A stretch of 64,000 bases of DNA from Methylocystis sp. MJC1 (lineage in GTDB: Bacteria; Pseudomonadota; Alphaproteobacteria; Rhizobiales; Beijerinckiaceae). Position 1 is the stretch's first letter; each line of letters begins with the position of its first letter. Position numbers and translations under genes: made by a program. The notes beneath the pieces are model-generated. The model made no database searches. It was not told the origin of the DNA and saw only the letters and a program-made list of their open reading frames with translations. Shown in pieces: positions 42,146 to 64,000 of this stretch. Location: assembly GCF_026427715.1 (NCBI RefSeq), contig NZ_CP107558.1, forward strand, positions 843,001-907,000, given 5' to 3'.

Positions 42146-42223
42146 GAGAATAGGTTCCCGATTGTGCTGAGACGCAGCGCTGAAGGGCGCTGGAAACATT
42201 TGGCCCCAAGGGCCTCTCGACGA

Positions 42224-42586
42224 TCAGGAGAAAAAGGGAGGCGCGCGCGTTGGCGGGCGCAGCGCTTGAAAGGCCGCCGGTTTGAAGTCTTGCCGGACGA
42301 ATGCGACGATACGCTCGGGGAAATCGCCGGATAAGACCAGCGCGAGGACAACAGCGGTGAGCGCAAGGAAGTTAGCCCCGCAGAGGATGCAGGCCGAGCA
42401 ATGGTCTTTCAGCGGAGCATTATGCGCCGGAGCGTTGTAATCGCCGGCTCCGCCAGCCTTTGCGCAAGTGAGCGCGAATGTGTCGTCTCCTTGCGCCGTT
42501 GTCGCAAGATGCGAATGGTTCAGCCACGCGCCCTGAAAGATGAGGGAGCATGCCACCAGAAGAACGGTGAGCCAACAACGCAACAT
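42224..42586 (-). CDS. DUF2946-like small membrane protein
   Basis: A 120-residue protein with an N-terminal signal-like helix, a central DHCSACILCGANF with the Cys-x2-Cys-x2-Cys pattern seen in DUF2946-type proteins, then a second hydrophobic helix (LALTAVVLALVLSG). Such proteins often lie beside copper or heavy-metal TonB receptors. It sits 78 bases upstream of the interrupted receptor on the same strand. Function is unknown; the Cys cluster suggests metal binding. Confidence 0.7.
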   Translation of the reverse strand: MLRCWLTVLLVACSLIFQGAWLNHSHLATTAQGDDTFALTCAKAGGAGDYNAPAHNAPLKDHCSACILCGANFLALTAVVLALVLSGDFPERIVAFVRQDFKPAAFQALRPPTRAPPFFS

Positions 42587-42704
42587 CTTTTGCTTCCCGC
42601 CGCGGATACAATTGCGGCTGTATTTCTAGATCAATGCTAGGAATCGTCAACTATGATTAATTGTTTCTATAATAAAAAACTGCAGAAATATTATTTATAT
42701 ATAG

Positions 42705-42727
42705 ACGTTGTGACAAATATACAACGT
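42705..42727. promoter_or_regulatory. Inverted repeat in an AT-rich promoter region
   Basis: ACGTTGT (42705-42711) and ACAACGT (42721-42727) are perfect arms nine bases apart within the AT-rich stretch 42640-42740, the likely promoter region of the DUF2946-like and receptor genes. It could be a metalloregulator site; the regulator is unknown. Confidence 0.4.
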
Positions 42728-42810
42728 TTATAACGCGTAGTATGACCCAATACATGGAATCCGCTATGGAGACGAAAAACACTACGCATGTACCTGCACC
42801 AATATTTGGT

Positions 42811-42833
42811 GCCCGGGGTTGAAAGCCCCGGGC
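42811..42833 (-). terminator. GC-rich hairpin after the PepSY gene
   Basis: GCCCGGGG (42811-42818) and CCCCGGGC (42826-42833) form a perfect eight-base stem with a seven-base loop, 13 bases beyond the stop of the PepSY gene on the minus strand. It probably ends the CobN-like/PepSY operon. Confidence 0.6.
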
Positions 42834-42845
42834 GCGGTTTACTGC

Positions 42846-44609
42846 TCAAGCCCATTTCTTTCGCCACCAACGGATGAGGCCGGTGACGCTCAGGAAGACA
42901 GCGAGGACTGCGAAGACGTCGTTCACCCATTTCCACTCGGACCAGAAGATCGTGCCCACATGCAGGCGCAGGAACCAGGTGAACCATGGCGTGCCCGGGT
43001 CGGATGGCATGTTGATGTCCTGCTTGCCGAGCGATTTGCCCTCCCGATCGGTGATCCAGAGTTTGTCGGAACTCTTCCAAAGCAATTTATCGTCAGCCAT
43101 GGCGACGTCGGACGGCATGAACATATTCTCCATTCCGCCCATGCCCATGCCTGCCAATTGAGCGCGCCTCGAAAGGCTCTGCTCTCCGCCGCCCGTCGCG
43201 CCATGATTCACGCCGCCATGGCCGCCTTCCATGCCCATTCCCATGGGGCTGGCTTTGACTTCGCGGTTGACGCCGTCGCTCCCGCGAATGGCCGACGCGC
43301 CGCCCATGCCATTGACCATCACGATCCGATCGCCAAATCGACGCATGCGCGCGGCGAGGCGAACGGGCTCGCCTGAAGGATTATCTTCGCGCGCCCAGGT
43401 CTGGCCGCCGTCGACCGTCGTAAACATGCCGATGCGATTGCCGATAGTGCAGGCGCCGGGCATGTCCGGATAGGCGACAATGGAATCGATCCAGCCGTCC
43501 CAGGAGGAGAGCGCAAAGGCCGGCGTGAGATAGGCCTGCGGGATCTTCACCGACCGCATCCACATGAACAACTCGCGGCCATGGCCAAGGAAGACGCCGG
43601 TAATCGACAAATAGAGCATCATGACCACGGAAGCGATGCCCAGCGTGACGCTGTGCAGGCGAAACAGCCAGATGATCGTCGTCTTCTTGGCTTCCTTGGA
43701 GGTGCGGGTCGTTGTCGCGGTTCTGCCTTGCCGTTTGCCCTGCGCCTTCCACCATTTTGGCAGCCCCCAATAGAGCAGGCCGGTGATGGACAGGACGAAC
43801 ATGCCGATCCCGCCGATGTCGTTTGCGACGAGCGACGTCGTCGGTCCCGCAAGCGCGCGGCCGAAATGCAAATCGTGGACAAAGCGGTTGAGCGGAGCGT
43901 CGAGCGGCCGCGCCGCCTTCTCCAGCGGCGCAAATTCGATCGGCTCGATTTTCCCAGGCGCATCGGCGTCGAAGCGATACACTTTGGCGCGATCGACGAT
44001 GGCGAGCATGTTTCTGGGCGTCGCATCAGCGGCGAGGCCGGTGACATAATTTCCTTCCAGCGCCGCGAGACGCGCGCTGGCACCGCCGTCTTCCGAAAGA
44101 TAGACCCCATCGTCGGTCGCAAGCCAAAGGCGCTCCCATCCCTTGGCGCCATCAGGCTCGATCGCCAGCAATTGCGGGTGGTCTCCCTTCTGGAAAACCG
44201 TCGGCGTCCACGTCGCGCCACTATCGCGCGAGACCCAGACGCCGCGCGGACCGCCCGCCACCCGGTGGGCGTTGTCGGCTGGGTCGATCTGCAAATAGCG
44301 GATCGTGTTGCGTGCGGATTGCTCGTCCAGCGCGCGCGTCGTCAGCCAGCTCGGCGTTTTGGCCTGCATTTGCCAACGCCAGCTGTCGTGATCCAGAAAG
44401 AACCCCGTCAGGCCCAAAGCCGCCAGCCAGCCCGCGCCTGCAAGGCCGGTCCATTTGTGGATGACGAAGGACCATCGATAGACCTTCGAGCCGCCCGGTT
44501 GGACCTTCTTTGTCGCGTGTTGCAGACGCTTTGTGACGGGCGAGGCGTCACGGGTGACGTCTGCGCCATCGGCCCCGCGCCTTCTGAACATCGTATCGAG
44601 AAAGGCCAT
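42846..44609 (-). CDS. PepSY-associated membrane protein with Met/His/Gly-rich loop
   Basis: A 587-residue protein of the PepSY-TM type: helix 1 in FVIHKWTGLAGAGWLAALGL, then FLDHDSWRW, a long extracytoplasmic region with two beta-propeller-like repeats (GVWVSRDSGATWTP; GVYLSEDGGAS), further helices GMFVLSITGLLYWG and SVTLGIASVVMMLYLSITGV, another BNR-like repeat (GMFTTVDGGQTWAR), and a last helix. Residues about 470-510 are rich in Met, Gly and His (SPMGMGMEGGHGG; GMGMGGMENMFM), as in copper-binding segments. PepSY-TM proteins near TonB receptors are thought to reduce or handle imported metal chelates. It lies 33 bases after the CobN-like gene on the same strand. Confidence 0.82.
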   Translation of the reverse strand: MAFLDTMFRRRGADGADVTRDASPVTKRLQHATKKVQPGGSKVYRWSFVIHKWTGLAGAGWLAALGLTGFFLDHDSWRWQMQAKTPSWLTTRALDEQSARNTIRYLQIDPADNAHRVAGGPRGVWVSRDSGATWTPTVFQKGDHPQLLAIEPDGAKGWERLWLATDDGVYLSEDGGASARLAALEGNYVTGLAADATPRNMLAIVDRAKVYRFDADAPGKIEPIEFAPLEKAARPLDAPLNRFVHDLHFGRALAGPTTSLVANDIGGIGMFVLSITGLLYWGLPKWWKAQGKRQGRTATTTRTSKEAKKTTIIWLFRLHSVTLGIASVVMMLYLSITGVFLGHGRELFMWMRSVKIPQAYLTPAFALSSWDGWIDSIVAYPDMPGACTIGNRIGMFTTVDGGQTWAREDNPSGEPVRLAARMRRFGDRIVMVNGMGGASAIRGSDGVNREVKASPMGMGMEGGHGGVNHGATGGGEQSLSRRAQLAGMGMGGMENMFMPSDVAMADDKLLWKSSDKLWITDREGKSLGKQDINMPSDPGTPWFTWFLRLHVGTIFWSEWKWVNDVFAVLAVFLSVTGLIRWWRKKWA

Positions 44610-44642
44610 GATTATTGCCTCCTTGCCGCATCAGGATTTCGA

Positions 44643-47600
44643 TCAAGCGCGTCGACGCACGACCATTGCGAGCGCCAGCTCGAACGCGACGCCTGCGCCG
44701 AATGCGCCGAGCACCGCGGCATAGAGCCGCCATTGTGGCGTATCGGGGCTATTGTCGTTCTGCGCCTGCTTTTCGAGCTTCATGCCGGTGACCTGCTGAG
44801 AGGATGCAGGCGCCGCGGCCTCGGTTTGCGCAGAGGGCTGCGGCGACGCGGGCAGGGCGGCTGCAAGACCGTAGCCCGCGACTTTCGCCGCGATGAACTC
44901 CGCCGCCTTCTCGTTGCTCATGTGGAGATCATGCGCTTTCGCGACCTCCTCATGCGTCTCGACGAGCGTCTTCACGACCTCTTCGGGCGCATCCCAATAG
45001 CCCTTGCGCACGGCTTCGAGCATGCGTTCGGAGAGTTGCGCCAGCGCGGCCGGATGGTTCTTCTGGAAATAGTCCTTGAGGCCGAGATTATATTTGTCCT
45101 TGACGTAGACCTCGTAGAACTCCTGCCATTGGTCGGCGCGCACGCTCGCGCGGTCCATCACGTTCCAGCCCCAGAAATTATTGAGGCTGTCGACCATCTT
45201 GGTTGCGCCGGAATAACGCTCCTTCATCAGCCCTTCGATGTAGCGGGGATGGAACATGCGCGAGCGCAGCTCCTGGCTCACCGCCTCGGCGACCGTCTGG
45301 TTCTTGAACTCGCGCGCGTTGCTCAAGTCCGAGAAGTAGAGCGCCGGCGTCTTGCCATCGAGGTGACGCACGGCGAGCCCGATGCCGCCGAGATATTCGA
45401 AGAAGTGGTCGAGCGAGACGATGCCGATGGCGTTGTTGGAGCGCGACAGGACGCTGGCCTTCGTTCCGCGAAGCGCCTCCGCAAAGAGATTCAGCCCGTC
45501 GATTTTCAGGCTATGGAGATCGGGCTCCAGGCCGTAGGCGTAGCTCAGCCGGTCGAGATAGACCTCGGCCAGCGCGCCCTCCTTGTCCCAGGCGCCGGAA
45601 GCGACGGTCGCCTGTGGCAGTTTGCTGCCGTAGACGCCGCTCTCATTGCCGAAGAGACGCACGCGGGCGAGCCGCTTGGCGCGGTCTTCCGGAACGCCTT
45701 TGGCGAGCAGCGCCTGCAGAGTCTTCTCGACATTGAGCGCGACGGGATTGTCGTCCTCCTTCAGCGCCGCGACCTTGTTCACCGCGCCCTGCAGCAATTG
45801 CATCAGCTCCGGCAGATTGTCGCGATAGCCGCCGGTGATCTGCAACACTGTGTCGACGCGCGGGCGATCCAGCTTGTTACGCGGAATAACATTCACGCCG
45901 GTGACGTCGCCGCGCTGGTTCCAGACCGGCTCGACGCCGAGCATATAGAGAATCTGCGCTTCAACCACGCCGAAATGATTGATCGTTTCCGGCTGCCACA
46001 GCGAGAAGGCGACCTTGTCGGGGTAGGCGCCTTTGTCCGCCTTGTATTTCTCCATCAGATCGCGCGCGAGCTTGGTTCCTGCTTCCCAAGCCGCTTTCGT
46101 CGGGATCTTGCGCGGATCGAAAGCATAGAGATTGCGCCCTGTCGGAATTGCAGCCGGATTGCGCAGCGGATCATTGCCGGTCGACGTCGGTATCGAGCCG
46201 CCGGCAAGCGCTTTGGCGAGGTTCTGCAACTCCATCGGGTGGGTGAAGTTGTCGTAGTGCTTGCGCGCTTCCTCGAGGAATGGGCGCGCCTTTTCTGGAA
46301 AAGCGCTCAGATCTTCCTTGTCGATCACGGCGCGGCGCAGTGCGACGAAAACCTCGTCCTTCTCCAGCTTGTCATATTGCTGGCTCGTCAGCAGCGTCGG
46401 GTTCTTGCCGAAGGCCTTGATGTAGTCCGGCGGCAGCATCTGGATGATGGTGAGCAGGATTTTTTCGGGCTCGACGGTCTTGCCGAAGGTGCGGAAGCCC
46501 AGCGGCTGCGGCATGCCCGCCATCGAGTGCAGGAATTTGTCGACGCCTTTGAGAAATTTCTCCTCGTCGGCGGCAACCGCCGCGTCGTCCATGCCAATGT
46601 CCTTCAGGATGTTGGTCTTTTTGGCCTTCTCGATGATCTGTTGCGTAAGATTGGCTTTCATCAGGCCGGGCGTCGCCGCCTCGTGCTGATTCATCAGCTC
46701 GTGCAGCTCGGTCAGCTCGCCGTAAAGTCCCGAGGGTGCGAAGGGCGGTTCGTCATGCGAGATCGTCACCGCGCGGCCGCGGCGGCGCGCAATGATCGCT
46801 TCTCCCGGGTCGTGCACCGCGTAAGGATAAATCAACGGCACATTGCCGATTGTCGTCTGCGTGTCGTTATAGACGGAAGGCGCGCGCTCCTTGCCGACGG
46901 AGAATTCCTGCGTGCCATGCGTGCCGATATGCAGAATGGCGTCGACCTTCTCCTTGTGCACGAGGTCGTAATAGACGGCGCGATACGCGTGATGCAGCGG
47001 GCGCTTCTTGTCGTGGAGGATGTCGGCTTCCTCCGAGCGCCGCGCGCCGCGCAGCGGCTGCGGCAGGATGAGAAGATTGCCGAGCTTCCAGCGCGGCACG
47101 ACAAAGTCGGCGCGCGCGCCATCCTTCAAGGTGAGATAGGTGTCTTCCGGCTTTTCCCAGCCCTCGGCAATCTGCTTCTGGGTCTCCGCGGGCAGCTTGG
47201 CGATGAAGTCCTTATATTCCGCGACCGGCACGCGCTCGGCGAGCCCGGCGTCGAGAAGCTTGCGCAGCTCGGCGTCATCCTTCGTGCGGTAATAGGGTCG
47301 GATCAGCTTCTTGATATTCTCGATCGCCGTCTTCTCGTCGATCTCGGGAATATCGTAGCCCTCGCTGCGTAGGGTCTTGATGATTTCGACGAGGCTTGCC
47401 GGAATGTTGAGATAGGAGGCGGCGAAGTTCTCCTCGCCTTCGGGCGTATTCCAGACCAGCGCGGCGAGTTTTTTGTCCTTGTTCGGCTTGTGGCGGAGAT
47501 TGGCTTGGGCGAGCGCGCGTTCGACCAGCGCCTCCGCCTGTTCCGGAATGGCTACAAGCTGTTCGTCGCCGCGGCGCTTGGCGGCGACGAGCGTATTGTC

Positions 47601-48734
47601 GATGCGACCCGCCATCTCCGGGAGCGTGTAATAGACGCCCATGCGAAAGACGGGCAGGCCTTCGTCGCTCTTGCGCCAGTCGTCCTCATAGCCCGTGCCA
47701 TAGGTCATCGCCTGGAGGATCGGGCGCTGGAATTTCTCGGCGAACTTCTTTTGATTATCGACGGAACCGTAAATGCCGGTGAAGGAGATCAAGATGTCCG
47801 GCAGAATTTTGTCGCCCTGAGAGAGCAGGGGCCAGACCGCCTCGCCGTCATTTGGGTCCCAGAACGGAAGCGCGAAAGCGCCCTTCTTCTCGATGCGGCG
47901 GATAACGTCGTCGATATGCAGCGTCGCGTCATTCGCAAGCTCGATACGGTGGAATCCGACGGCCACGATTTTCTGGCCAGGCTTGGGCGCGCGCCATTTG
48001 AGATAGTCGTCGAGAGAAACGAAGGTCTTCTTCGCAGCGTCCGGGTGATAAATCCCTGCTTCCGGCATGATCGCCGGCGCGCCGCCCTTCTTGCCCGGCT
48101 TGCCGAAAATATCCGTGCGGATGTAATCGGCGAGATAGCCCTCGTTCTGCGCCCCGCCATTGCGCATATAGGCCATGATGCGCTCGCATTGTTCCGGCGT
48201 CAGGCCGCGGGTGAGATCGGGCCGCTTCCACATGGGACCGCCCCAGACCCGCCCGTCGAAATCGCCAAGCAGCGGTTCGACCTTGCCGAGGAGGATCGGG
48301 AAGGTCGACTCCATCACCCAGTCGAACATCGCAAGATCACGCCCAGCGAGCTTTTTGCGGATCGCGTCTTCGTCGAGGAGATCGACGAACACATACTCGG
48401 CATCCACGCCGCGTTCGTGCGCGAGTTTTTCGATGAGCTTGCCTTTGGCGGGGCTCGACGGCTCGCGCGCGAAAATGACCACGGAAGGCTTGCCGGCGAT
48501 GGGTTTCGCGACGAAGGGACGAACGTCCTTCGGCTTCTCATCGGCTGGAGATCCACCGTTGGCGCTGCGCCCCATCGGACGGCCCATGCCCTCAGGGGGC
48601 GTTCCGGAGACGGTTGCGGCGGCGGGCGGCGCATTGGCCGGCGTTTGAGCGCAGAGCGCTTGTGGTTGCGCGAGCGCGCCGAAGGCCAGCGCTGCGGCAA
48701 AAGTGATCCAAAGACGGTTCTGTTTGATCGCCAT
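44643..48734 (-). CDS. Exported CobN-like protein with C-terminal membrane anchor
   Basis: A 1363-residue protein homologous to the CobN/ChlH/BchH large chelatase subunit. It has a cleavable signal (ITFAAALAFGALAQPQALCA), a Pro/Gly-rich linker, then the CobN domain with HIGTHGTQEFSVGKERAP, PLIYPYAVHDPGEAIIARRR, RNLYAFDPRKIPTKAAW, LGVEPVWNQRGDVTGVNVIP and VRLFGNESGVYGSKLP. The last 27 residues form a membrane helix ending in VVRRRA. True CobN is cytoplasmic and acts with CobS and CobT, which are absent here. An exported, anchored form next to ExbB/ExbD-like subunits and a TonB receptor points to metal or tetrapyrrole handling in the periplasm; the actual reaction is unknown. Antisense frames are long but not coding. 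Confidence 0.88.
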   Translation of the reverse strand: MAIKQNRLWITFAAALAFGALAQPQALCAQTPANAPPAAATVSGTPPEGMGRPMGRSANGGSPADEKPKDVRPFVAKPIAGKPSVVIFAREPSSPAKGKLIEKLAHERGVDAEYVFVDLLDEDAIRKKLAGRDLAMFDWVMESTFPILLGKVEPLLGDFDGRVWGGPMWKRPDLTRGLTPEQCERIMAYMRNGGAQNEGYLADYIRTDIFGKPGKKGGAPAIMPEAGIYHPDAAKKTFVSLDDYLKWRAPKPGQKIVAVGFHRIELANDATLHIDDVIRRIEKKGAFALPFWDPNDGEAVWPLLSQGDKILPDILISFTGIYGSVDNQKKFAEKFQRPILQAMTYGTGYEDDWRKSDEGLPVFRMGVYYTLPEMAGRIDNTLVAAKRRGDEQLVAIPEQAEALVERALAQANLRHKPNKDKKLAALVWNTPEGEENFAASYLNIPASLVEIIKTLRSEGYDIPEIDEKTAIENIKKLIRPYYRTKDDAELRKLLDAGLAERVPVAEYKDFIAKLPAETQKQIAEGWEKPEDTYLTLKDGARADFVVPRWKLGNLLILPQPLRGARRSEEADILHDKKRPLHHAYRAVYYDLVHKEKVDAILHIGTHGTQEFSVGKERAPSVYNDTQTTIGNVPLIYPYAVHDPGEAIIARRRGRAVTISHDEPPFAPSGLYGELTELHELMNQHEAATPGLMKANLTQQIIEKAKKTNILKDIGMDDAAVAADEEKFLKGVDKFLHSMAGMPQPLGFRTFGKTVEPEKILLTIIQMLPPDYIKAFGKNPTLLTSQQYDKLEKDEVFVALRRAVIDKEDLSAFPEKARPFLEEARKHYDNFTHPMELQNLAKALAGGSIPTSTGNDPLRNPAAIPTGRNLYAFDPRKIPTKAAWEAGTKLARDLMEKYKADKGAYPDKVAFSLWQPETINHFGVVEAQILYMLGVEPVWNQRGDVTGVNVIPRNKLDRPRVDTVLQITGGYRDNLPELMQLLQGAVNKVAALKEDDNPVALNVEKTLQALLAKGVPEDRAKRLARVRLFGNESGVYGSKLPQATVASGAWDKEGALAEVYLDRLSYAYGLEPDLHSLKIDGLNLFAEALRGTKASVLSRSNNAIGIVSLDHFFEYLGGIGLAVRHLDGKTPALYFSDLSNAREFKNQTVAEAVSQELRSRMFHPRYIEGLMKERYSGATKMVDSLNNFWGWNVMDRASVRADQWQEFYEVYVKDKYNLGLKDYFQKNHPAALAQLSERMLEAVRKGYWDAPEEVVKTLVETHEEVAKAHDLHMSNEKAAEFIAAKVAGYGLAAALPASPQPSAQTEAAAPASSQQVTGMKLEKQAQNDNSPDTPQWRLYAAVLGAFGAGVAFELALAMVVRRRA

Positions 48735-48745
48735 GTTGCGCGCTC

Positions 48746-49099
48746 CTACTGCTGGCCCGTTTTTGCAGGCGCTTTTGCGGCGACATCGGCTTCGGGGACA
48801 TAGACGAAGGAGCCGTCCTTCATCCGGTAGGCGACGCCGGCGCGGGCGCCTTCGCCGCTGCCGATCGAGTCCGTCGCCTTGTATTTTTCGATTTTCTTGC
48901 CGTCCTTGACGACCATCTCCATGTCCGGCTGGCCGGGGTTCTTCACCACGACGGCCTTTTCGGAAGCGAAGGGATTGAGCGGATTGGCGGCGATGACCAT
49001 CATCAGCGCGCCGACCAGGACAAGAAAGACATCGACGAGATTGACGACCGAGAGGATCGGGTCGAGTTCCTCGTCTTCGTTCAAGATTCGCAGGGTCAT
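48746..49099 (-). CDS. DUF2149 protein, ExbD-like
   Basis: A 117-residue protein with one membrane helix near the N-terminus (DPILSVVNLVDVFLVLVGAL) and a periplasmic domain. The NLVDVFLVLVG segment, with an Asp in the membrane helix, resembles the proton-handling helix of ExbD/TolR. DUF2149 genes are, as I recall, found beside CobN-like and MotA/TolQ genes in several bacteria and archaea. The start at 49099 overlaps the stop of the ExbB-like gene (ATGA), and the CobN-like gene begins 11 bases after its stop. Confidence 0.85.
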   Translation of the reverse strand: MTLRILNEDEELDPILSVVNLVDVFLVLVGALMMVIAANPLNPFASEKAVVVKNPGQPDMEMVVKDGKKIEKYKATDSIGSGEGARAGVAYRMKDGSFVYVPEADVAAKAPAKTGQQ

Positions 49100-49620
49100 G
49101 CCGCCGCTCCAGATCCGGAGAGGCGGCGACGGATGGAGACGAGCTCCTCCGCGTACCATCGGCGCTTGACGCTGGCGATGCAAAAGCACAGGGAGGCGGC
49201 GGCAAGCGCTAGGACCACCGACGAGAAGGCCGAGCGCAGCAACTCGCCCATCTGCGACACGTCGTTCTTGGTCAATGCGACGAGCGCCGGTCCCATGGGA
49301 ATGAGCGTCGCCATCAATCCCAGCAGCGGCGTCACGCGGGTTGCGATGCGAATGAGCTCCAGCCGTTTCATGGCGGCGACGTCGAGATCGTCGATCGTCA
49401 GGCTTTCATCGGCGGCGTGAAGACGCGCAATGGGGTAGGCGTCCCCAGCGTCGTCGAGCGCGCCGAAGCTTTGCGTCCGGAAAGCCTGCCGGCCGCTGAA
49501 GCGCAGATAGGCCTGCACCGCCATGCGGCCGGTTTCGAAGAGGGCGTAGACGAAGGCGAGGAGAATGGCCACTTGCACGGGCGCGAGCAGCAGGTCGGCG
49601 ATATTGGCGAAAAAGGACAT
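49096..49620 (-). CDS. MotA/TolQ/ExbB-type proton channel subunit
   Basis: A 174-residue membrane protein with three helices: ADLLLAPVQVAILLAFVYAL, then RVTPLLGLMATLIPMGPALV and SSVVLALAAASLCFCIASV. The T-P-L-L-G-L-M-A-T-L-I-P-M-G segment is the hallmark of the family. The ATG at 49620 (MSFFANIADL) was preferred to 49692 because family similarity begins there. It is first in the ExbB-like/DUF2149/CobN-like/PepSY operon and, with the DUF2149 protein, should supply proton-motive energy to the system. Confidence 0.9.
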   Translation of the reverse strand: MSFFANIADLLLAPVQVAILLAFVYALFETGRMAVQAYLRFSGRQAFRTQSFGALDDAGDAYPIARLHAADESLTIDDLDVAAMKRLELIRIATRVTPLLGLMATLIPMGPALVALTKNDVSQMGELLRSAFSSVVLALAAASLCFCIASVKRRWYAEELVSIRRRLSGSGAAA

Positions 49621-49761
49621 AAGGCTCACTCTGCCATTTCGTCGGCTGTCGGGCGCGACGAAGGCTCCAATGGCGAACGCAAAGGCGCGCAAGAGCGCCT
49701 TGGCCGCGTCAGTTTTCAGCGATGGGGAAGATGTGCGCGCTCAGCGGCGCGCTAAAAAAAA

Positions 49762-56334: not shown

Positions 56335-56968
56335 TCATGTTTATCGCAATTCGCCTAAAACAAAGTCTAGCGTAAGGCGAGCAATTCAGATTGGCTATTA
56401 TTGATCTCCACAGAATATTTAGCTGCCCGCGTCGGAAATCAGTTTACGAGCAGCCGCGCCGCCTCGGCAACCTCGTGCGCTTTCGTCTGATGCCGGGGCA
56501 GCGTCCCTACTCTGCAACGTTGGTCGCGTCGAAAGCAACGCTGGTTCGACTTTGCTCATTTGAACGGCCACCAGGAACAGCCCACTTAGGACCATGCGAA
56601 GCGGCGACAAATAGGCGACTCTCGAGAGAGAAACCGTGGTCAAGCCAACCGAGCGAGAGATCTTGGGTAGGAGAAAACAATGAAGCCTCTCGAGCAGGCG
56701 GAAGACGGGGAGTTTTCGAGCGTTCGCTTCGTCCTGACCGACACATGGACGAGACGCTCACTTTTCGCGGGCGATTTAACGCGGCGACATATTCCGCGCT
56801 GGAGCGCCTTCGCGACGCCGGACTGGTCGTCATTCCCGTGACCGCCGTGGCGTGATTCAAGCTTGGGATGCATCGCTTCGAATTGAAGGACGCCCAATTG
56901 GCGAAGATGGAGCCACTTCGCCCGAGTCCAATATTGAATTGCCAATCGACAGCTGCGACCACTCCGGC
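56335..56968. other. 634-base gap without a convincing gene
   Basis: It should hold the promoter of the cusC-like gene. A minus-strand frame at 56419-56643 has a hydrophobic segment (MVLSGLFLVAVQMSKVEP) that could be a small exported protein, but it lacks a good start and ribosome site. Other open frames here show no recognisable features. The region may contain gene remnants. Confidence 0.45.
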
Positions 56969-57451
56969 TTATACTGCGGGCGCATCGGAGGAATCCACGA
57001 TTGTCACGCCGGCTCGGGGCCGCACGACAACTTTGGCGGAGCCCGATAATGCGGCCGCTCTATTTTGTTCGCATCGTCCCGAAAGCGATACGAGATAGCC
57101 ACGAAGTTTTTCATTGCGTGCGATGCCGATAATTTCCCAGACAATGCGAAACGGCGCGTCGGACGTAACGGGTCGAAGAAAACGCACATGCAGCTCCAAA
57201 CCGAGCGCCTGTCCAAATCTTACGAAATATGTAGCTAGCAATGCGCCGAAAAGCGCCGACGTATGCGGCCCGGAAGCGATGATGTCGTCGAACCCCCAGC
57301 CATGCGCTGCTTTATCGTCGACGTGAATCGGATTGGCATCACCGCACGCGTGTGCGAAGTCTGCGATCGACTGACGGCTGAGCGTCATTTCTGCGTCAAA
57401 GCGGTCGCCGACGGCGATAGTCGGCGCTCTGGTCGACTCTTCAACGCTCAT
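56969..57451 (-). CDS. MaoC-like (R)-enoyl-CoA hydratase
   Basis: A 160-residue hot-dog-fold protein. SIADFAHACGDANPIHVDDK is the hydratase 2 motif with the catalytic Asp and His, and GFDDIIASGPHTSALFGALL follows. RPVTSDAPFRIVWEI is also family-like. It should hydrate a 2-enoyl thioester or dehydrate a 3-hydroxyacyl thioester. It is last of the minus-strand biosynthetic series, 44 bases after the radical SAM gene. Confidence 0.85.
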   Translation of the reverse strand: MSVEESTRAPTIAVGDRFDAEMTLSRQSIADFAHACGDANPIHVDDKAAHGWGFDDIIASGPHTSALFGALLATYFVRFGQALGLELHVRFLRPVTSDAPFRIVWEIIGIARNEKLRGYLVSLSGRCEQNRAAALSGSAKVVVRPRAGVTIVDSSDAPAV

Positions 57452-57495
57452 AAGGATCAGCTATTAACGCAGCAGGAACGGTCAAGCTGCTTACC

Positions 57496-58674
57496 TCAGC
57501 TGCATTTGCATTCTTCAAGTTCATGGACCGTCTGCGTCGATAGAGCATCCCCTGCGCCGAGCGATTTACTGTGCGCAGGATGGTAGGGAGACCAAATAAA
57601 TTGGCTCCAGTATGACTCAGCCATCTCAATCCATTCGACAAGCCGCTCTCGTGACTCGAGATAGGCGCCCACATTTACCAGCAGCCAGCTGTATACGGCT
57701 TGGCTATCACGGCATCCGTCGCAGTGGCCGGACGTGCAGCAGAATTCGACGGATTTTAGATCTGATTTATACGCGTTGAACAGCGGTAATGTCGGGTTTC
57801 CGTTCAAGCGCCGCTCGCTATGTCCGGGATGATCGACGCTAACGCTCGGGCAAGAATGATAGCCGAAACTTCCCCGGTCGTTACCACCGGTGACAACGGC
57901 GCGAATATGCATCGGATGGCTGACGACAGTCTCTGGGTAGAGGGTTTTGACACGCAGCGCCTCCGACAGAAGTTCTTGCTCATGCGTTTGCCGAATTGGG
58001 GCGCGCTTGTCATATTCGCTATAATAGTTGAACGTGACGCGGTTCCCGTTCTCCGCGATGCGCCCGATGGTCTCTTCAATAACGTCTAGTCCGCGCTCAG
58101 AAAGCCCATATACGAAGCAGGCGCGGTCGTCGTTGCGATAATTATCGAGCACAGTTTCGAAAAGACCGCTGAAGCGCTGGCCGCCGGGCTTTATGGCGCG
58201 CAATTCGTCGTCAAGGGGCCCGCCGCCGAAAAGCGTCAACATGATGTTGACCGTTTCGAAATCGGCATCAAATGGAAGCTTTCTTAAGCCGTTCGACGAA
58301 ACGGTGACATAATCGAACGCGCGCGCATAGGCGCGCACGCGTTCCGGAAATAAGGTCGGTTCGCCGCCGATTAGAAGGGCCGATGTTATCTGCCGCGACT
58401 TTTCTTTATCTATAAAACGGTTTAGCTCCTCGAGCGATTTTTCTTCCTGCGCAGCGGCGTCATGCCCAAATTCGAAAAACCAACAGCCTCGACACCGCAG
58501 ATTGCATGCGTCGGTTACGTGGTATTCCGACACGCGTATAGAGGAAGAGAAGTTTTTGAGCCGCGCGAGCCGCTCCGCGAGTTTCTGGTCGCCTGCGACA
58601 AGGGCCTCGATGGCGCTTTGGCGCCGCGATGGGCGATCCTTGGCAGGCTGTTTATGCAACAATGGTTCGGCCAC
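57496..58674 (-). CDS. Radical SAM protein with C-terminal cysteine cluster
   Basis: A 392-residue radical SAM enzyme: HVTDACNLRCRGCWFF carries the CxxxCxxC cluster at Cys57, Cys61 and Cys64, and ALLIGGEPTLFPERV is the SAM-binding GGE motif. The C-terminal part has further Cys (YHSCPSVSV; CCTSGHCDGC; ECKCS), suggesting an auxiliary cluster of SPASM or related type. The GTG at 58674 is chosen as start, with GGGAG seven bases upstream. The substrate is unknown. It lies between the ferritin-like and MaoC genes on the same strand. Confidence 0.88.
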   Translation of the reverse strand: MAEPLLHKQPAKDRPSRRQSAIEALVAGDQKLAERLARLKNFSSSIRVSEYHVTDACNLRCRGCWFFEFGHDAAAQEEKSLEELNRFIDKEKSRQITSALLIGGEPTLFPERVRAYARAFDYVTVSSNGLRKLPFDADFETVNIMLTLFGGGPLDDELRAIKPGGQRFSGLFETVLDNYRNDDRACFVYGLSERGLDVIEETIGRIAENGNRVTFNYYSEYDKRAPIRQTHEQELLSEALRVKTLYPETVVSHPMHIRAVVTGGNDRGSFGYHSCPSVSVDHPGHSERRLNGNPTLPLFNAYKSDLKSVEFCCTSGHCDGCRDSQAVYSWLLVNVGAYLESRERLVEWIEMAESYWSQFIWSPYHPAHSKSLGAGDALSTQTVHELEECKCS

Positions 58675-58725
58675 GGCTCTGCTCCCGATCTTCCTTTACC
58701 CGTTGGCTTGCACACCGACGCGGCC

Positions 58726-59478
58726 TCAAACGAATTTTCGGTTCTCGACATCCGGTGGAACGCGCAGGCCCAATGCCTCGAGACGTGGACGCATGTTCGC
58801 ACTAAAGGCGAGCCTTAATTCCTCGTTTCCGGTCTTGCGGATTCCCCATTTCAAATACAGCTTTGAGCGCTCGGAATTAGCGCGACCGAACAGGTCGAGA
58901 ACGGCGGGCCAAAGTCGGTTAAGCGCTGCTTGCGCCTCCGCGCGGCCTTCATCCGTTCGGCATGCGTCGCGCACGATCCGAAAGCCATGCGCGACGTGAA
59001 TGCGCTCGTCCCGTAGAATTTTCGGGAAAATTTCGGCGAATGGCTTGTAGCTGCATTCAGCGAATTCGGTCAGGTGGTCGAAGACGACCTGTTCGCCAAG
59101 GAAGGAATAAATGCCGCGCTCCATCCAAGTGCGAATGTCGCGCACGAGTTCCGTCGTGTAATAGCGACGCTCGTGTATCTTCTGGGTCAGCATATAGCTC
59201 GTGTCGACGCCGATCTCGGCTAGCACCGCCGCGCTCAACATATAGTGATCGATTTCCTCAGCCGCGCGTTCGCAGCAAATCATGCGCTCATATGCGTTCG
59301 GCGCCAGCGGATAAAAAAGTTGCACGTAATCGTCGGCGCCCGTCAATTCGCCTTCGGTGTGAACCAACATCAGATGCGTTACGACATCCTGATATTCCTT
59401 AGGCATATGACGAAGACCGTTCCTATCGACCGCTATTGTCGCGTTTTCTGCCGCTTTAATATTCGCAGCAATGTCCAT
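58726..59478 (-). CDS. Ferritin-like di-iron protein, possible oxygenase
   Basis: A 250-residue helical protein with two E/ExxH-type sets: ERAAEEIDHYMLSAAVLAEI and ERGIYSFLGEQVVFDHLTEF, plus KILRDERIHVAHGFRI. This matches ferritin-like oxygenases such as the PaaA/MiaE group. It may hydroxylate, epoxidise or desaturate a CoA- or carrier-bound substrate, but the reaction cannot be told. GGGAGA six bases before the ATG supports the start. It precedes the radical SAM gene by 51 bases. Confidence 0.82.
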   Translation of the reverse strand: MDIAANIKAAENATIAVDRNGLRHMPKEYQDVVTHLMLVHTEGELTGADDYVQLFYPLAPNAYERMICCERAAEEIDHYMLSAAVLAEIGVDTSYMLTQKIHERRYYTTELVRDIRTWMERGIYSFLGEQVVFDHLTEFAECSYKPFAEIFPKILRDERIHVAHGFRIVRDACRTDEGRAEAQAALNRLWPAVLDLFGRANSERSKLYLKWGIRKTGNEELRLAFSANMRPRLEALGLRVPPDVENRKFV

Positions 59479-59635
59479 TCGGCAGTCTCCCTATATAAAA
59501 CGTATCGAATATCTTTGCAGCCGGTACAACCCCTCGCGGACGTTGCGAGACAGCCGCGCGCCGCTGCCTCATCTGGCGCCTTCAAAATCGTTTAGCGTCG
59601 CCAGTATCGCGATACCGCTCGAAACATTAGTCACG

Positions 59636-60007
59636 TCAGCGCGCAATGCAATGAAGTGCTTCAGCCTCGAACACTCGTCCATTCTGATCAAATCGCAACC
59701 GTTCGATCACCACGCGATCACGAGTTACATTCCGATACAGAATTGCGATTACGTCCATTCCGCTGAACACATCCATCAGTTCGAAACGCAAGGACGGCGT
59801 TGCCGAAAGGCTCTTTAGCCAATAACTCCGTATCTGCTCTTTGCCGGAGAGTCGGCCGCATTCGACCCCAAGGCGTTCGAGAATGAAAGGGGACGACATT
59901 TCAAAGCCATCTGTATAATGCGCGAGTATGCGATCGAGATCGGCGGCATTCCAGGCGTCGATCCATTCGGCGGCAAAGGCGCGCGCCCATTCCTTTTCGA
60001 TCAGCAT
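59636..60007 (-). CDS. SnoaL/NTF2-fold protein
   Basis: A 123-residue protein of the NTF2-like superfamily: FAAEWIDAWNAADLDRILAH then YTDGFEMSSPF at the N-terminus, LRFELMDVFSGMDVIAILYR in the strand region. Members include polyketide cyclases, isomerases and dehydratases as well as non-enzymatic binding proteins. It is in the biosynthetic gene series with same-strand neighbours 116-157 bases away. Confidence 0.78.
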   Translation of the reverse strand: MLIEKEWARAFAAEWIDAWNAADLDRILAHYTDGFEMSSPFILERLGVECGRLSGKEQIRSYWLKSLSATPSLRFELMDVFSGMDVIAILYRNVTRDRVVIERLRFDQNGRVFEAEALHCIAR

Positions 60008-60123
60008 TCACCCAAGGTCCGCGACCCCGACCAATTCGTGCTGACAACTTTAAAGGAGCGCCGCGACACGCCGCAGCGCTTCTTAAAGGACAAGGTGCTA
60101 CCGCTTCGCTAGAAGCGGAGTTG

Positions 60124-60441
60124 TCACTTCGCGCTGTGAAGCGTCTGCGTGGTCGCTTCGACTGCGTCGTCAGCGACTTTCAGTGAAGCCTGCAGCGCTT
60201 TCAACGAACCAGACACCGCCTGAAGCGACGCCGCGACCGCGGAGCGTTCTATGTCTTGAAGCGATTTACCTGCAGCCCGGAGGGTTTCGTTCACTTCGCG
60301 CAGACGAGCGATACGTTCGCTCGCCGTTGCAAGCACCTGCCGCATTGAAGCAGCCATTTTCCCGCCTGCATGGACGAGATCTTTCAATTCTTCTTCGGAA
60401 AGATCCCGCTTGAAACCACCTTGTTGAGACTCGCTGGCCAT
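60124..60441 (-). CDS. Small coiled-coil protein
   Basis: A 105-residue soluble helical protein starting MASESQQGGFKRDLSEEELK. Heptad-like repeats run through ATASERIARLREVNETLRAA and SLQAVSGSLKALQASLKVAD. The composition (Ala, Ser, Leu, Lys, Glu) resembles phasins and other surface-associated helical proteins, but I cannot assign a family. It lies between the KAS III-like and SnoaL-like genes. The internal Met at 60441 is preferred to 60513 because upstream codons are not helical. Confidence 0.6.
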   Translation of the reverse strand: MASESQQGGFKRDLSEEELKDLVHAGGKMAASMRQVLATASERIARLREVNETLRAAGKSLQDIERSAVAASLQAVSGSLKALQASLKVADDAVEATTQTLHSAK

Positions 60442-60606
60442 GTCGCGACCCCTGTAATTTAATTTGCCTAACGCTTCGACTATGTGGCACACGCGCGCCT
60501 GCGTCAAGCACAATTCAATACAATTGTTTGCTCGGTAAGACGATAGAGCTTCGCGTGAATTTTGATTTTGCTGGGCAGAAGGGCGAACGCGGATCGGGGC
60601 GCCCTA

Positions 60607-61572
60607 CTACAGTGCTTGGAGCGCGATGGCGCCGCAAGAAACCGGACCACATAAAAATACAAGCACTTGATCTGTCGAGCGCACAAGATCGTCTGAGGCG
60701 AGCTTAGTGAGGTTTATGAGCGGATCAAAAGGGATGTGTCCAAATTGTCCGACATTTTTCATAAAGATGCGATCCGGCGAAAAGCCTAGCAGTTTGCCAT
60801 GAGTCAATGATGTCAAAGCATTATAGTCGCCAAGTAGGATCCAGCGAAACGCCTGGGGCGACAGGGCGCATGCGTCGTAGCAATCCGCAGCCGCATTGCG
60901 CATCGCGCGGAACATTTCAAGCAAAGCCTTGGCACGGTCGTCTGCGGCGGTGAATTGCTTATAAGGCGCATTGCCGACATATCGAAGCCTGAAGGCGCGC
61001 GGATCACCCTTTTGCGTCGCGCTGACAATACAGGCGGCGGCGCCGTCTCCGGCGATCGAGACGGCCTCTGGCATGAGGCGCGCCCCCGTGGCGCCGAACT
61101 TCTCGCCAACTATAATAAGAGCGTTACGACTCAAATCTTTGTTGATCAGCGCTTCCGCCATCAGGAATGAGTGCAAGAGATTCGCGCAGGCGCCGTAAGT
61201 GGCGCAGGAAACGGAAGCTTTGCGAATCCCGAGGCTATGGAGAAAAGCAAATATTTGATTGCGGGTGTCGCGAAACGGTCCGACCACCGCATGGCCCTTG
61301 TCGTCGAAGAGATATCCAAAGCTCTCGGTGGCGAGGATCACCGCGTCAATGTCCGACGCCGCAATGTCCGCGGCCGCCAGCGACCTGAGAATGCATCGCT
61401 CCATCGACTGTGACAGCGGATGCTGCAACACGGACACGCGTACAACACCTTGCTCCAGCAACTGTTTGGCGTCGCCGAGCGTGACGCCTTCGCCGACAAG
61501 GTCGGTGATGGATACGCTTTGGCCGACCTCGTAACAAATCGCACTAATTACGACTTCTTTGGATATAAGCAT
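60607..61572 (-). CDS. KAS III-like ketoacyl synthase with atypical active site
   Basis: A 321-residue thiolase-fold protein of the FabH type: LPLSQSMER-like start region, DIDAVILATESFGYLFDD, SVSCATYGACANLLHSFLMA with the probable nucleophile Cys129, and VSIAGDGAAACIVSA. In FabH the sequence HQAN supplies the catalytic His; here the matching segment reads LLGDYNALTSL, so His is absent, while the Asn of KNVGQFGHIPFDP is kept. This suggests an acyltransferase or ester/amide-forming relative rather than a decarboxylating condensing enzyme. The start at 61572 was preferred to 61602. First gene of the minus-strand series; the divergent AMP-ligase gene starts 295 bases away. Confidence 0.82.
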   Translation of the reverse strand: MLISKEVVISAICYEVGQSVSITDLVGEGVTLGDAKQLLEQGVVRVSVLQHPLSQSMERCILRSLAAADIAASDIDAVILATESFGYLFDDKGHAVVGPFRDTRNQIFAFLHSLGIRKASVSCATYGACANLLHSFLMAEALINKDLSRNALIIVGEKFGATGARLMPEAVSIAGDGAAACIVSATQKGDPRAFRLRYVGNAPYKQFTAADDRAKALLEMFRAMRNAAADCYDACALSPQAFRWILLGDYNALTSLTHGKLLGFSPDRIFMKNVGQFGHIPFDPLINLTKLASDDLVRSTDQVLVFLCGPVSCGAIALQAL

Positions 61573-61867
61573 ATTTGATTGTCCGCGACGGCACGTTCCC
61601 AAAAGAACGCTTCAAATTGGAAACTATTGATTGCATTTGGCCGCCAATCGGGCAAGTTTGACATTCAATGCGATCCATGGCGCGCTCACAGTTGCGGAGC
61701 GCTGGGGAATGATTTAGCCTTTTTGTATCTGCCACGCTCCCGCTTTCATGAGAGTGGCGCGATTTTCAACAGCCTCGCGATGGAGGGATAAGCGTTATTA
61801 CAGTGGGGCCCTGAGCGCCCCGCAAATTTTCAATCGTCCTATCGAAAAGATTTGCTGGAGCACGACT

Positions 61868-63442
61868 TTGCTCTCCTCAGTCACAAACATTTCGGAATTG
61901 GTGCGGGGCGCGCGCGAACGTTTCGGCGAGCGCGCCTATATCAATCCGTTCGAACGCGGCTTGAACGCTGTCACTTATGCGGATCTCGCGCATTTTGTGC
62001 GTGGTCTCGACGCTTTTTTTGACGATCATTCGGTTGGCGAGGACGCGGTCGTTGCAGCCGTCTTGCCTAACTGCACTTTAATGGCGCTTTTATTTATCGC
62101 CATTCCCGCCGTCGGTCGCCAGTATTTGCCTTTGCACCCTGCGCAAACGCCCTCGGAGCGCTGTTATGCGCTCAGTGCTGCTCCAGTGCGCGCCGTCTTT
62201 GCGCGTAGCGCGGACACTTCAAGCGACGGTTTGGCTAGAATCGAGGGCGTCGTCTGGCTGATCGCGGACGACAGTAAGTTCATTCGCGAGATGATCGTTC
62301 GCGGCAAGGAAGTGACCGATGCGCCCGCGGCGTCGCCCGATGCGGACAGCGTCGCGGAAATCGTTTTTACGTCGGGGTCCTCAGGAAAGCCGAAAGGCGT
62401 ATTGCTGTCGCACCGTAATCTGCTTGCAAATTCCGCTGCGCTCGTGACCCGCTACGGGATCCGCGCCGAGGATCGCCTCCTGACCGCCATTCCGCTCGTC
62501 CATGCAGGCGGGCAATGCTTCACGACGTTGGGCCCGCTATGGGTCGGCGCCGCGGCGACGGTGGTCCCGCCGGACCTCGCGATGGTCGGGCTGTGGAAGA
62601 TGGTCGAGCTGCATTCGATCAGCTGGACGGTAGTGATGACCGCCTTTCTCAACGCCGCGTTGGCGCGCAGCGGCGCGCCGCCCGCGATGCGGCTGAAGGG
62701 CGTGCTGGCGGGCGGATCGGCGGTGAGCGCCGAGACAATCCGGGATTTCGAGGCGCGTTTCAGCGTCCCCATCTATCAAGTTTACGGGCAGACGGAGATG
62801 GCGGCAATCGTCGTGTCAGAGCCAGTCGGCGACGCCGGGCGCCGGGTCGGCAGTGTCGGCAGGACGCTTCCCGGCTTCGAGGTGAAAGTCGTTTGCGAAG
62901 ACGGTTCCGACGCGGAGCCTGGCCAGACCGGCGAGATTTGGCTTGCGGGCCCCTCGCGCTTCCTCGGCTATCTCAACGCGTCGGAAGAAACGGCGCGCAA
63001 ATCGGCGGGCCGCTTCGTCCGCACTGGCGACGTCGGGCGTTTCGACGACGCTGGCAATCTTTGGGTCGTCGACCGAAAGGACAATCTGATTATCGTCGGC
63101 GGCGAGAACATTTATCCCGCGGAGATCGAAAACGTCGTGCGGACTCTTGGCGCGGTCGAGGACGTGATCGTGACAGCGGTGCCGGACGCCGTACTCGGCC
63201 AACAACTGGTGCTGGTTTACAAGGAGCGCGACGCGCAAGGGATCGACGACCGTGCAATCGACATGGCGCTGCGGCGGGAATTGAGCGGCTGGAAGGTTCC
63301 GCGCTTGCGCCTCACTCTGCCAGAACTTGGCTTGGACGATTGGCCGCGCACATCGAGCGGCAAGATTGCGCGACCCGAGGTCGCACGGCTAGTGCGCGCG
63401 TTTTGCGCGCGGCGCGCTGCTCCGGTCACTTTGGGAAAATAG
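61868..63442 (+). CDS. Acyl-CoA synthetase / AMP-forming ligase
   Basis: A 524-residue ANL-superfamily enzyme. P-loop-like IVFTSGSSGKPKGVLLSHRN, then QVYGQTEMA, GEIWLAGPSRFLGYL, VRTGDVGRFDDAGNLWVVDR and GENIYPAEIENVV, ending with the catalytic-Lys region PRTSSGKIARPE. It should adenylate a carboxylic acid and load it onto CoA or a carrier. No ATG fits; the TTG at 61868 has GGAG seven bases before it and starts the conserved region. It is divergent from the KAS III-like gene and 20 bases before the P450 gene. The acid substrate is unknown. Confidence 0.92.
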   Translation: MLSSVTNISELVRGARERFGERAYINPFERGLNAVTYADLAHFVRGLDAFFDDHSVGEDAVVAAVLPNCTLMALLFIAIPAVGRQYLPLHPAQTPSERCYALSAAPVRAVFARSADTSSDGLARIEGVVWLIADDSKFIREMIVRGKEVTDAPAASPDADSVAEIVFTSGSSGKPKGVLLSHRNLLANSAALVTRYGIRAEDRLLTAIPLVHAGGQCFTTLGPLWVGAAATVVPPDLAMVGLWKMVELHSISWTVVMTAFLNAALARSGAPPAMRLKGVLAGGSAVSAETIRDFEARFSVPIYQVYGQTEMAAIVVSEPVGDAGRRVGSVGRTLPGFEVKVVCEDGSDAEPGQTGEIWLAGPSRFLGYLNASEETARKSAGRFVRTGDVGRFDDAGNLWVVDRKDNLIIVGGENIYPAEIENVVRTLGAVEDVIVTAVPDAVLGQQLVLVYKERDAQGIDDRAIDMALRRELSGWKVPRLRLTLPELGLDDWPRTSSGKIARPEVARLVRAFCARRAAPVTLGK

Positions 63443-63462
63443 CCGATTTGGATGCTGCACCC

Positions 63463-64000
63463 ATGGATCTAGCTGACCCCGCGACTTATCAAAACGGCGC
63501 GCCCATAGGTTGGTTTGAGCGCGCTCGCGACGGCGGCGCATTGCAATGGCGCCATAGCCCCTATCTCGGACGTGGCTTTTGGGTCGGACTCACAGGGAGT
63601 GTGTTTGATCGCGTGTTCAGCGAACCGCAGCTGTTTTCGTCGAGCGAGGGCACGGTGACGCTCGACGATCCCCAGGGACTCGACCTCGAAAAGCGACGGC
63701 TGTTCCTGATCAATATGGACCCGCCGAGACATACGGCGTTCCGGAAAATCGTCGCGCGCGCTTTTAAGGATGACGCCGTCGACGTGCTCGGCAAGAAGAT
63801 CGATGAGTTCACCGACGCTATTTTTCGGGATTTGCCGAACCACGGCGAAATCGACGTCGCCAAGACGATCGCCAACGACCTGCCGCTTCGCGTCATGTGC
63901 GAGCTTTTGGGCGCCGATCCCGAGGATCGCTTCCGGCTTGGCGTCGACGCGGAGGTGATGAATTTTCCCGAAGACCCCGATTTACACCCGGATCGTGCGA
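63463..64000 (+). CDS. Cytochrome P450, N-terminal part (cut by window edge)
   Basis: 179 residues are visible. Soluble bacterial P450 features include SPYLGRGFWVGLTGSVFDRV, SEPQLFSSSEG, and LFLINMDPPRHTAFRKIVAR, the conserved helix C region with the DPPRH motif. The heme-binding Cys lies beyond the window. The start at 63463 follows the ligase gene by 20 bases on the same strand, so the two are probably co-transcribed. It would oxidise an intermediate of the cluster. Confidence 0.9.
   Translation, partial: MDLADPATYQNGAPIGWFERARDGGALQWRHSPYLGRGFWVGLTGSVFDRVFSEPQLFSSSEGTVTLDDPQGLDLEKRRLFLINMDPPRHTAFRKIVARAFKDDAVDVLGKKIDEFTDAIFRDLPNHGEIDVAKTIANDLPLRVMCELLGADPEDRFRLGVDAEVMNFPEDPDLHPDRA

Follow-up and report, generated by a model that had tools for sequence, protein, structure and literature searches.

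A PaaA-like diiron protein and a radical SAM enzyme form a recurrent gene pair within a candidate acyl-processing cluster of Methylocystis sp. MJC1

PaaA, the catalytic subunit of 1,2-phenylacetyl-CoA epoxidase, which works with PaaC and PaaE, belongs to the phenylacetate pathway, whose genes also include paaK, paaZ and paaI. Here we describe a gene cluster of Methylocystis sp. MJC1 in which a PaaA-like non-haem diiron protein is encoded next to a radical S-adenosylmethionine (rSAM) enzyme. It lies at the right-hand end of a stretch of 64,000 nucleotides, hereafter the window (bases 843001-907000 of contig 1, NZ_CP107558.1, in a 4.54-Mb genome of four contigs). The same two genes stand together at most related loci detected, and we put at about one half the probability of its acting on an acyl thioester by oxidation and radical remodelling, with a pathway built round this two-enzyme module, which would probably have been acquired horizontally. 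The first-pass annotation of this DNA knew of no pathway with this exact combination of genes; in agreement, searches by title and abstract opening in the open-licence literature of PubMed Central, a body of text that leaves out most subscription papers, gave no description of such a pathway or of the PaaA-like/rSAM pair.

The PaaA-like protein reaches 93.7 bits against PF05138 (gathering score 28.5) and 94.4 bits against TIGR02156, the model of PaaA itself, which is under the cut-off of 280. It had initially been labelled a ferritin-like oxygenase, a name that suits the fold and can now be narrowed to the PaaA_PaaC family. Its subfamily keeps the ferritin-like fold and six putative iron ligands, located by alignment to PaaA residues that we take to bind iron there. 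Cys68 is invariant in the subfamily, is missing in 30 PaaA-like proteins outside it, and sits two helical turns away from Glu75, one of the putative iron ligands; the adjacent Cys69 is not invariant. A Streptomyces diiron gene with supposed internal stops was rejected as such, the reported stops being gene ends. As a separate observation, a second protein that looks AurF- or ferritin-like by eye is encoded near the pair in seven loci (L034:2151-3209, L011, L015, L031-L033 and L036), the L034 copy giving no Pfam or NCBIfam match at 1e-3.

The rSAM protein scores 36.3 bits against PF04055 (cut-off 29.5), and the cysteines of its CX3CX2C motif are kept in 33/33 cases. Eight cysteines are invariant, five of them downstream of the core motif, and the additional ones appear to be of the iron-sulphur type. 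In alignment A5, the L032 protein was re-cut ahead of a stop codon and L044, with a stop in frame, was left out. None of the SPASM-type NCBIfam families reached its cut-off, and a viperin identity was rejected (NF038283, 33.7 bits against a cut-off of 180). By Foldseek and VIA-align, the top fold match is BlsE, a small-molecule enzyme of blasticidin S biosynthesis, and many radical SAM folds appear at middling scores. Distant rSAM relatives (23-34% identity) were also seen in L068-L071 and L012, with no PaaA-like gene noticed alongside; a methyltransferase and a P450, both named by eye, lie near those of L068 and L069, and the 23% relative on a Methylomagnum plasmid (L012:13386-22178) stands beside an acyl carrier protein (ACP), a TauD-type dioxygenase and a peptide synthetase.

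The distribution of the pair was followed in a species-genome contig collection, a plasmid collection and genome samples, absences in the latter holding for the candidates scored (up to 9, 6, 7 or 13 per genome, depending on the search). Among the contigs of the species-genome collection, the rSAM sequence by itself had no match, and a four-row rSAM alignment found 38 loci in Pseudomonadota, Myxococcota and Actinomycetota, near-duplicates included (the Alteromonas-type L039-L042, and L016, a Tistrella plasmid also present as L011). A PaaA-like gene adjoins the rSAM gene, or is separated from it by one hotdog gene, in 33 of these 38. Among the remaining five, the rSAM gene is at or near a contig end in L037 and L048, L051 matches weakly and in part, and no PaaA-like gene stands beside the rSAM gene in L035 or L046. 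In the plasmid collection, rSAM relatives of 48-59% identity occur in Tistrella, Burkholderia, 11 Alteromonas records and one Enterobacter record (E. hormaechei, NZ_OR497351.1, at 48.6%, the same figure as Alteromonas), and the four closer records inspected (Tistrella, Burkholderia stagnalis and two Alteromonas) each carry PaaA-family and hotdog genes near the rSAM gene.

A whole-genome check of 32 of the 38 rSAM loci, leaving out L016, L021, L040, L041, L042 and L051, found the PaaA subfamily at E 1e-35 in 27; the five negative genomes were those of L035, L037, L044 (where broken pieces lie beside the rSAM gene), L046 and L048. In the reverse direction, a profile of the PaaA-like subfamily was run against three samples of 398, 195 and 286 genomes, and all 12 subfamily genes found (one, four and seven, respectively) have an rSAM gene close by. 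Among the 398 genomes of the phylum, the home protein scored 403.7 bits, the next one 116.3, and the others listed at E 1e-25 about 91-104. The 195 genomes, from the family of an Oxalobacteraceae strain, gave four proteins above 365 bits, all at already known rSAM loci; a further protein of 131.6 bits lacks the cysteines and has no rSAM gene within its 3.7-kb stretch. Finally, 286 Streptomyces genomes gave seven matches at E 1e-35, six of them new, with the rSAM gene adjacent in 7/7. The genome of Cupriavidus basilensis holds a second subfamily copy, likewise beside rSAM, PaaI-type and MaoC genes.

The identity matrices of both proteins over 28 loci are correlated (Mantel test, r = 0.893), with 0 of 5000 permutations as high; the B. 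stagnalis row of this comparison joins proteins from two strains (L009, L021). The window protein sits on a long branch (0.73) of the rSAM tree, with weak support for its placement, and Pseudomonadota and Myxococcota are intermixed in well-supported clades, which fits horizontal spread. The core pair and its invariant residues are conserved more than by chance. Conservation as a group, on which the first-pass annotation had staked its cluster, is found for the PaaA-like/rSAM pair in both search directions and was not found for all eight genes as one travelling unit, the full set having been seen at none of the other loci.

The most interesting rival is that the rSAM enzyme is a maturase acting on the diiron protein itself, for instance turning Cys68 into a modified residue of the active site. 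We think this unlikely, considering that the top fold match of the rSAM protein is a small-molecule enzyme, that no PaaA-like partner was detected for it in L035 and L046, that a single rSAM gene is shared by two PaaA-like genes in three myxobacterial loci, and that Cys69 varies. Its bolder form, in which modification at or near Cys68 would create a new O2-activating centre reused by diverse pathways on acyl thioesters, seems to us a long shot.

The genes surrounding the pair in the window, and the one that follows, are these.

56969..57451, minus strand: MaoC-like hotdog hydratase/dehydratase gene (PF01575, 57.5 bits; HadB-like in NCBIfam, below cut-off, 39.5 against 203)
57496..58674, minus strand: rSAM enzyme gene, GTG start, CX3CX2C and five more invariant cysteines (Radical_SAM PF04055, 36.3 bits)
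58726..59478, minus strand: PaaA-like non-haem diiron enzyme gene, of the subfamily with invariant Cys68 (PaaA_PaaC PF05138, 93.7 bits)
59636..60007, minus strand: SnoaL-like protein gene (SnoaL_2 PF12680, 44.2 bits)
60124..60441, minus strand: 105-residue open reading frame without assigned family, ATG at 60441 (no profile match)
60607..61572, minus strand: KAS III-like gene, whose altered triad keeps Cys, lacks His and has His in place of Asn (ACP_syn_III PF08545, 29.4 bits, scored on the longer frame 60607-61602)
61748..63442, plus strand: AMP-forming acyl-CoA ligase gene (AMP-binding PF00501, 221.7 bits; start uncertain, ATG at 61748 or a downstream TTG or GTG)
63463..64000 and past the window end, plus strand: cytochrome P450 gene (p450 PF00067, 54.9 bits), ending at L002:11666, i.e. 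contig position 907665 or window-equivalent 64665
L002:12037-13458, beyond the window: aldehyde dehydrogenase gene, after the P450 gene (profile match)

The eight genes initially proposed, six on one strand and two divergent, are all open frames at their places (56969-61572 on the minus strand, from 61748 on the plus strand), and extension to the right, as had been advised, completed the P450 gene and disclosed the aldehyde dehydrogenase gene behind it. A clear family motif had been claimed for each; seven of the eight proteins exceed Pfam cut-offs in the profile scan, and the exception is the frame at 60124-60441, with zero Pfam or NCBIfam matches at 1e-3. Transcription of the minus-strand genes runs from the KAS III-like gene through the 105-residue frame, SnoaL, PaaA-like and rSAM genes to MaoC. 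Most likely, the KAS III-like gene starts at ATG 61572 and the P450 gene at ATG 63463. Promoter and terminator scans gave no excess over shuffled sequence.

In 17 of the 38 loci the pair directly adjoins a gene of the hotdog fold (MaoC, PaaI or 4HBT type by phmmer); as in the window, a MaoC gene lies next to it in L039 (Alteromonas), L043 (Pseudomonas) and L049 (Parvularcula). Two Alteromonas plasmids (L010:14210-16565 and L013:11210-13565) carry a cassette of PaaA-like, rSAM and MaoC genes near Tn3-type transposase and recombinase genes, perhaps the smallest working version of the system. The near-duplicates L010, L016, L021, L040, L041 and L042 were left out of the neighbour clustering. The Streptomyces neighbourhoods (four of the seven matches, fetched with wide flanks, plus the earlier L103; L119-L122) have a FabF-like gene near the pair in 5/5 and an ACP-like one in 4/5, as judged by mutual similarity; L122, the one fully annotated by profile, encodes an ACP, a ketosynthase (381 bits, under the FabF cut-off of 493.75), a FabI that passes its cut-off, and a ligase of the fatty-acyl type. 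L031 has a gene in which ligase, ACP and ketosynthase are fused, and L032 and L033 encode large proteins related to it. Opposite the pair on a Burkholderia stagnalis plasmid (L009:9967-20061) are genes for an acyl-homoserine-lactone synthase and a chlorinating enzyme, together with two small carrier-protein-type genes and an adenylation domain, a gene set that recurs in L017, L021 and L026. The surroundings of the pair vary, and their commonest theme is the handling of thioester-bound groups.

Some of these neighbours would also suit a pair that makes an unusual amino-acid-derived unit, loaded and extended differently by different clusters. A pyridoxal phosphate (PLP) aminotransferase-type gene in nine loci (neighbour cluster 3, annotated from one representative) would fit such a substrate. 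The branched-chain aminotransferases of Streptomyces L103 and Sorangium L047 point the same way, as do the adenylation domain, the ACP and the chlorinating enzyme next to the pair in Burkholderia. On the contrary, the Alteromonas cassette consists of PaaA-like, rSAM and MaoC genes only, and no aminotransferase or peptide-synthetase gene was found among the home cluster genes tested, even though the best PDB matches of the ligase are peptide-synthetase adenylation domains, followed by malonyl-, oxalyl- and fatty-acyl-CoA ligases. We regard an amino-acid-derived unit as rather unlikely.

The neighbourhood searches advised for both signature proteins differed in outcome: the rSAM query led to a constant PaaA-like partner, and the KAS III-like query showed a rare protein, with one relative beside the pair in a Polyangiaceae locus. 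At E 1e-15 the KAS III-like protein was found in the home genome only among 299 genomes, and the plasmid collection held no match covering 80% of it. The Polyangiaceae locus (L045, from a metagenome-assembled genome) comprises PaaA-like, rSAM, second PaaA-like, KAS III-like, thiolase, ACP, FabF, P450 and SnoaL-type genes, i.e. five of the eight families of the window, the KAS III-like proteins being 27% identical over their length and the P450 and SnoaL matches reaching 117 and 51 bits by phmmer. Were the eight genes unrelated neighbours gathered by chance, their exact set would be expected to be absent from the other loci examined, as it is, and gaps of 116-165 bp between the upstream minus-strand genes would be no surprise. 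The conservation of the pair beyond chance, often with a hotdog gene, already contradicts this for the core, and the five families assembled in L045, the rare KAS III-like protein among them, argue against it as well; we consider a chance gathering very improbable.

The outer genes are less straightforward to place. The KAS III-like protein scores 29.4 against a cut-off of 24 for ACP_syn_III and is weakly similar to FabH; in a HMMER alignment to FabH 2ebd, Cys is kept, His is replaced by Gly and Asn by His, and the Cys-His-Asn triad of FabH is incomplete. In the Polyangiaceae relative the Cys is itself replaced by Ser; a usual condensing KAS III activity appears unlikely for the window protein. 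The nearest PDB entry to the P450 is CYP125, a steroid C26-monooxygenase, with CYP124, a hydroxylase of methyl-branched lipids, further down. Ligase-family genes recur at several loci, with 66-86 bits by phmmer for the four long matches (L031, L032, L033, L050), and are not clear orthologues; for ligase and P450 alike, we only infer that they would belong to the pathway.

In the reading that we favour, remodelling of an acyl thioester, the ligase would convert a carboxylic acid into an acyl thioester, and the diiron enzyme, binding acyl-CoA or acyl-ACP as PaaA does, would use O2 to give an oxygenated or desaturated chain. Either before or after this step, the rSAM enzyme may abstract hydrogen from the same acyl unit, whose skeleton would then be rearranged, closed or cleaved. 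MaoC might hydrate or dehydrate the acyl unit, the KAS III-like protein, with its non-FabH triad, could transfer or join acyl groups, and the P450 and aldehyde dehydrogenase may oxidise the product further. We infer one common substrate for both core enzymes, its acyl-thioester nature and all these reaction types. The earlier proposal of an acyl-derived product finds agreement in kind, with ACP, FabF-like, FabI-type, fatty-acyl-type ligase, thiolase and hotdog genes at several related loci, and as to the product itself it stays conjectural.

Several observations weigh against this reading. The genomes of L035 and L046 have no subfamily member at E 1e-35, nor one beside the rSAM gene, and two PaaA-like genes accompany a single rSAM gene in the three myxobacterial loci. 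The profile of the reverse test was itself built from rSAM-linked rows, and the Mantel test carries no control for shared species ancestry. Ligase and P450 genes are divergent from the core genes, and the aminotransferase-type gene of nine loci, which in L009 lies ~9 kb from the pair, would suit an amino-acid-derived substrate too. Furthermore, PaaB, PaaC and PaaE partners were not among the cluster genes scanned with Pfam and NCBIfam, the rest of the genome not being searched for them.

This last aspect also bears on a route resembling phenylacetate degradation, in which the ligase would form an aryl-CoA, the PaaA-like enzyme would epoxidise the ring, MaoC and aldehyde dehydrogenase would act as the two halves of PaaZ, and the rSAM enzyme would divert an intermediate, comparably to tropone formation. 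The families do parallel paaK, paaA, both paaZ domains and, at other loci, paaI. On the contrary, PaaB, PaaC, PaaE and PaaG are unmatched among the cluster genes tested, a weak match to the PaaC model being the PaaA-like protein itself; the home genome has no second PaaA-type match at E 1e-25 (6 of 10 candidates scored); several related loci bear fatty-acid-synthase-type genes; and the P450 resembles steroid and lipid hydroxylases. A phenylacetate-like route is, in our view, decidedly doubtful. Ordinary phenylacetate catabolism was rejected, as the cluster genes gave no match to PaaB, PaaC or PaaE and the home protein is in a separate subfamily.

The genome context agrees with an acquired module. 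The host is probably a methanotroph, given that three of its genes exceed the Pfam cut-off for the ammonia/methane monooxygenase family. When 31 same-genus genomes, home included, were compared at the DNA level (at most nine candidates scored per genome), no match to L002:3970-9366, a stretch that begins with MaoC, takes in the KAS III-like gene and reaches into that of the ligase, was listed outside the home genome, and genes to its left do match other genomes of the genus. In a family sample of 199 genomes, the rSAM protein was present in two, namely the home genome and another whose protein is a 34% relative, and at E 1e-15 in 0/9 of the other same-genus genomes listed. Because the region is unmatched in the genus, its left flank is matched and the rSAM protein is scarce in the family, we take it to be probably an acquired island. 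At its left edge, window positions 56720-56968 hold a short frame remnant resembling, by eye, the start of a phosphatase gene, and a 67-base stretch with 81-85% identity to several places in same-genus genomes, perhaps an insertion-sequence remnant.

Right of the aldehyde dehydrogenase gene lie a LysR regulator and efflux genes (membrane fusion protein, RND pump, MFS transporter), all named by eye, and then the following operon, possibly the cluster's second half.

L003:1267-7968, i.e. contig 1, 917266-923967: HMG-CoA synthase, enoyl-CoA hydratase, asparagine synthase, FAD monooxygenase, acyl-CoA dehydrogenase and hotdog thioesterase genes

Its HMG-CoA synthase scores 476 bits, above the NCBIfam cut-off, and was found at E 1e-40 in one of 119 family genomes, the home genome only. 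Beyond it, L003:12291-13502 is an integrase-like gene and L003:18068-20000 a mobile element of IS66 type, both by eye; the home genome contains five more copies identical to the latter. Elsewhere in the window (39461-49692), TonB-receptor-like, PepSY-like and large CobN-like genes stand in a row, by eye, perhaps a metal-uptake locus.

A module present in three phyla and joined to many different acyl-processing gene sets suggests one useful reaction, of which no description was found, and the coupling of an O2-dependent enzyme with a normally O2-sensitive radical enzyme is chemically odd. The combination of an rSAM protein bearing FCCTSGHCxxCRDSQAV with a PaaA-like protein bearing Cys68 offers a search handle for uncharacterised clusters, and compact versions of three or four genes open the reaction to direct tests.

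Among the closest known systems, PaaA and BoxB, the epoxidases of phenylacetyl-CoA and benzoyl-CoA, differ from the window protein, which forms a separate subfamily with an invariant Cys68 and an rSAM partner, and with no PaaB, PaaC or PaaE among its neighbours. As against the SPASM/twitch-type rSAM enzymes that modify peptides and proteins, such as SkfB, anSME and ChlB, that of the window has an oxygenase-type protein as its neighbour and matches no SPASM family at cut-off, although five invariant cysteines follow its core motif. Likewise, FabH-type KAS III enzymes are set apart from the window protein by their intact Cys-His-Asn triad.

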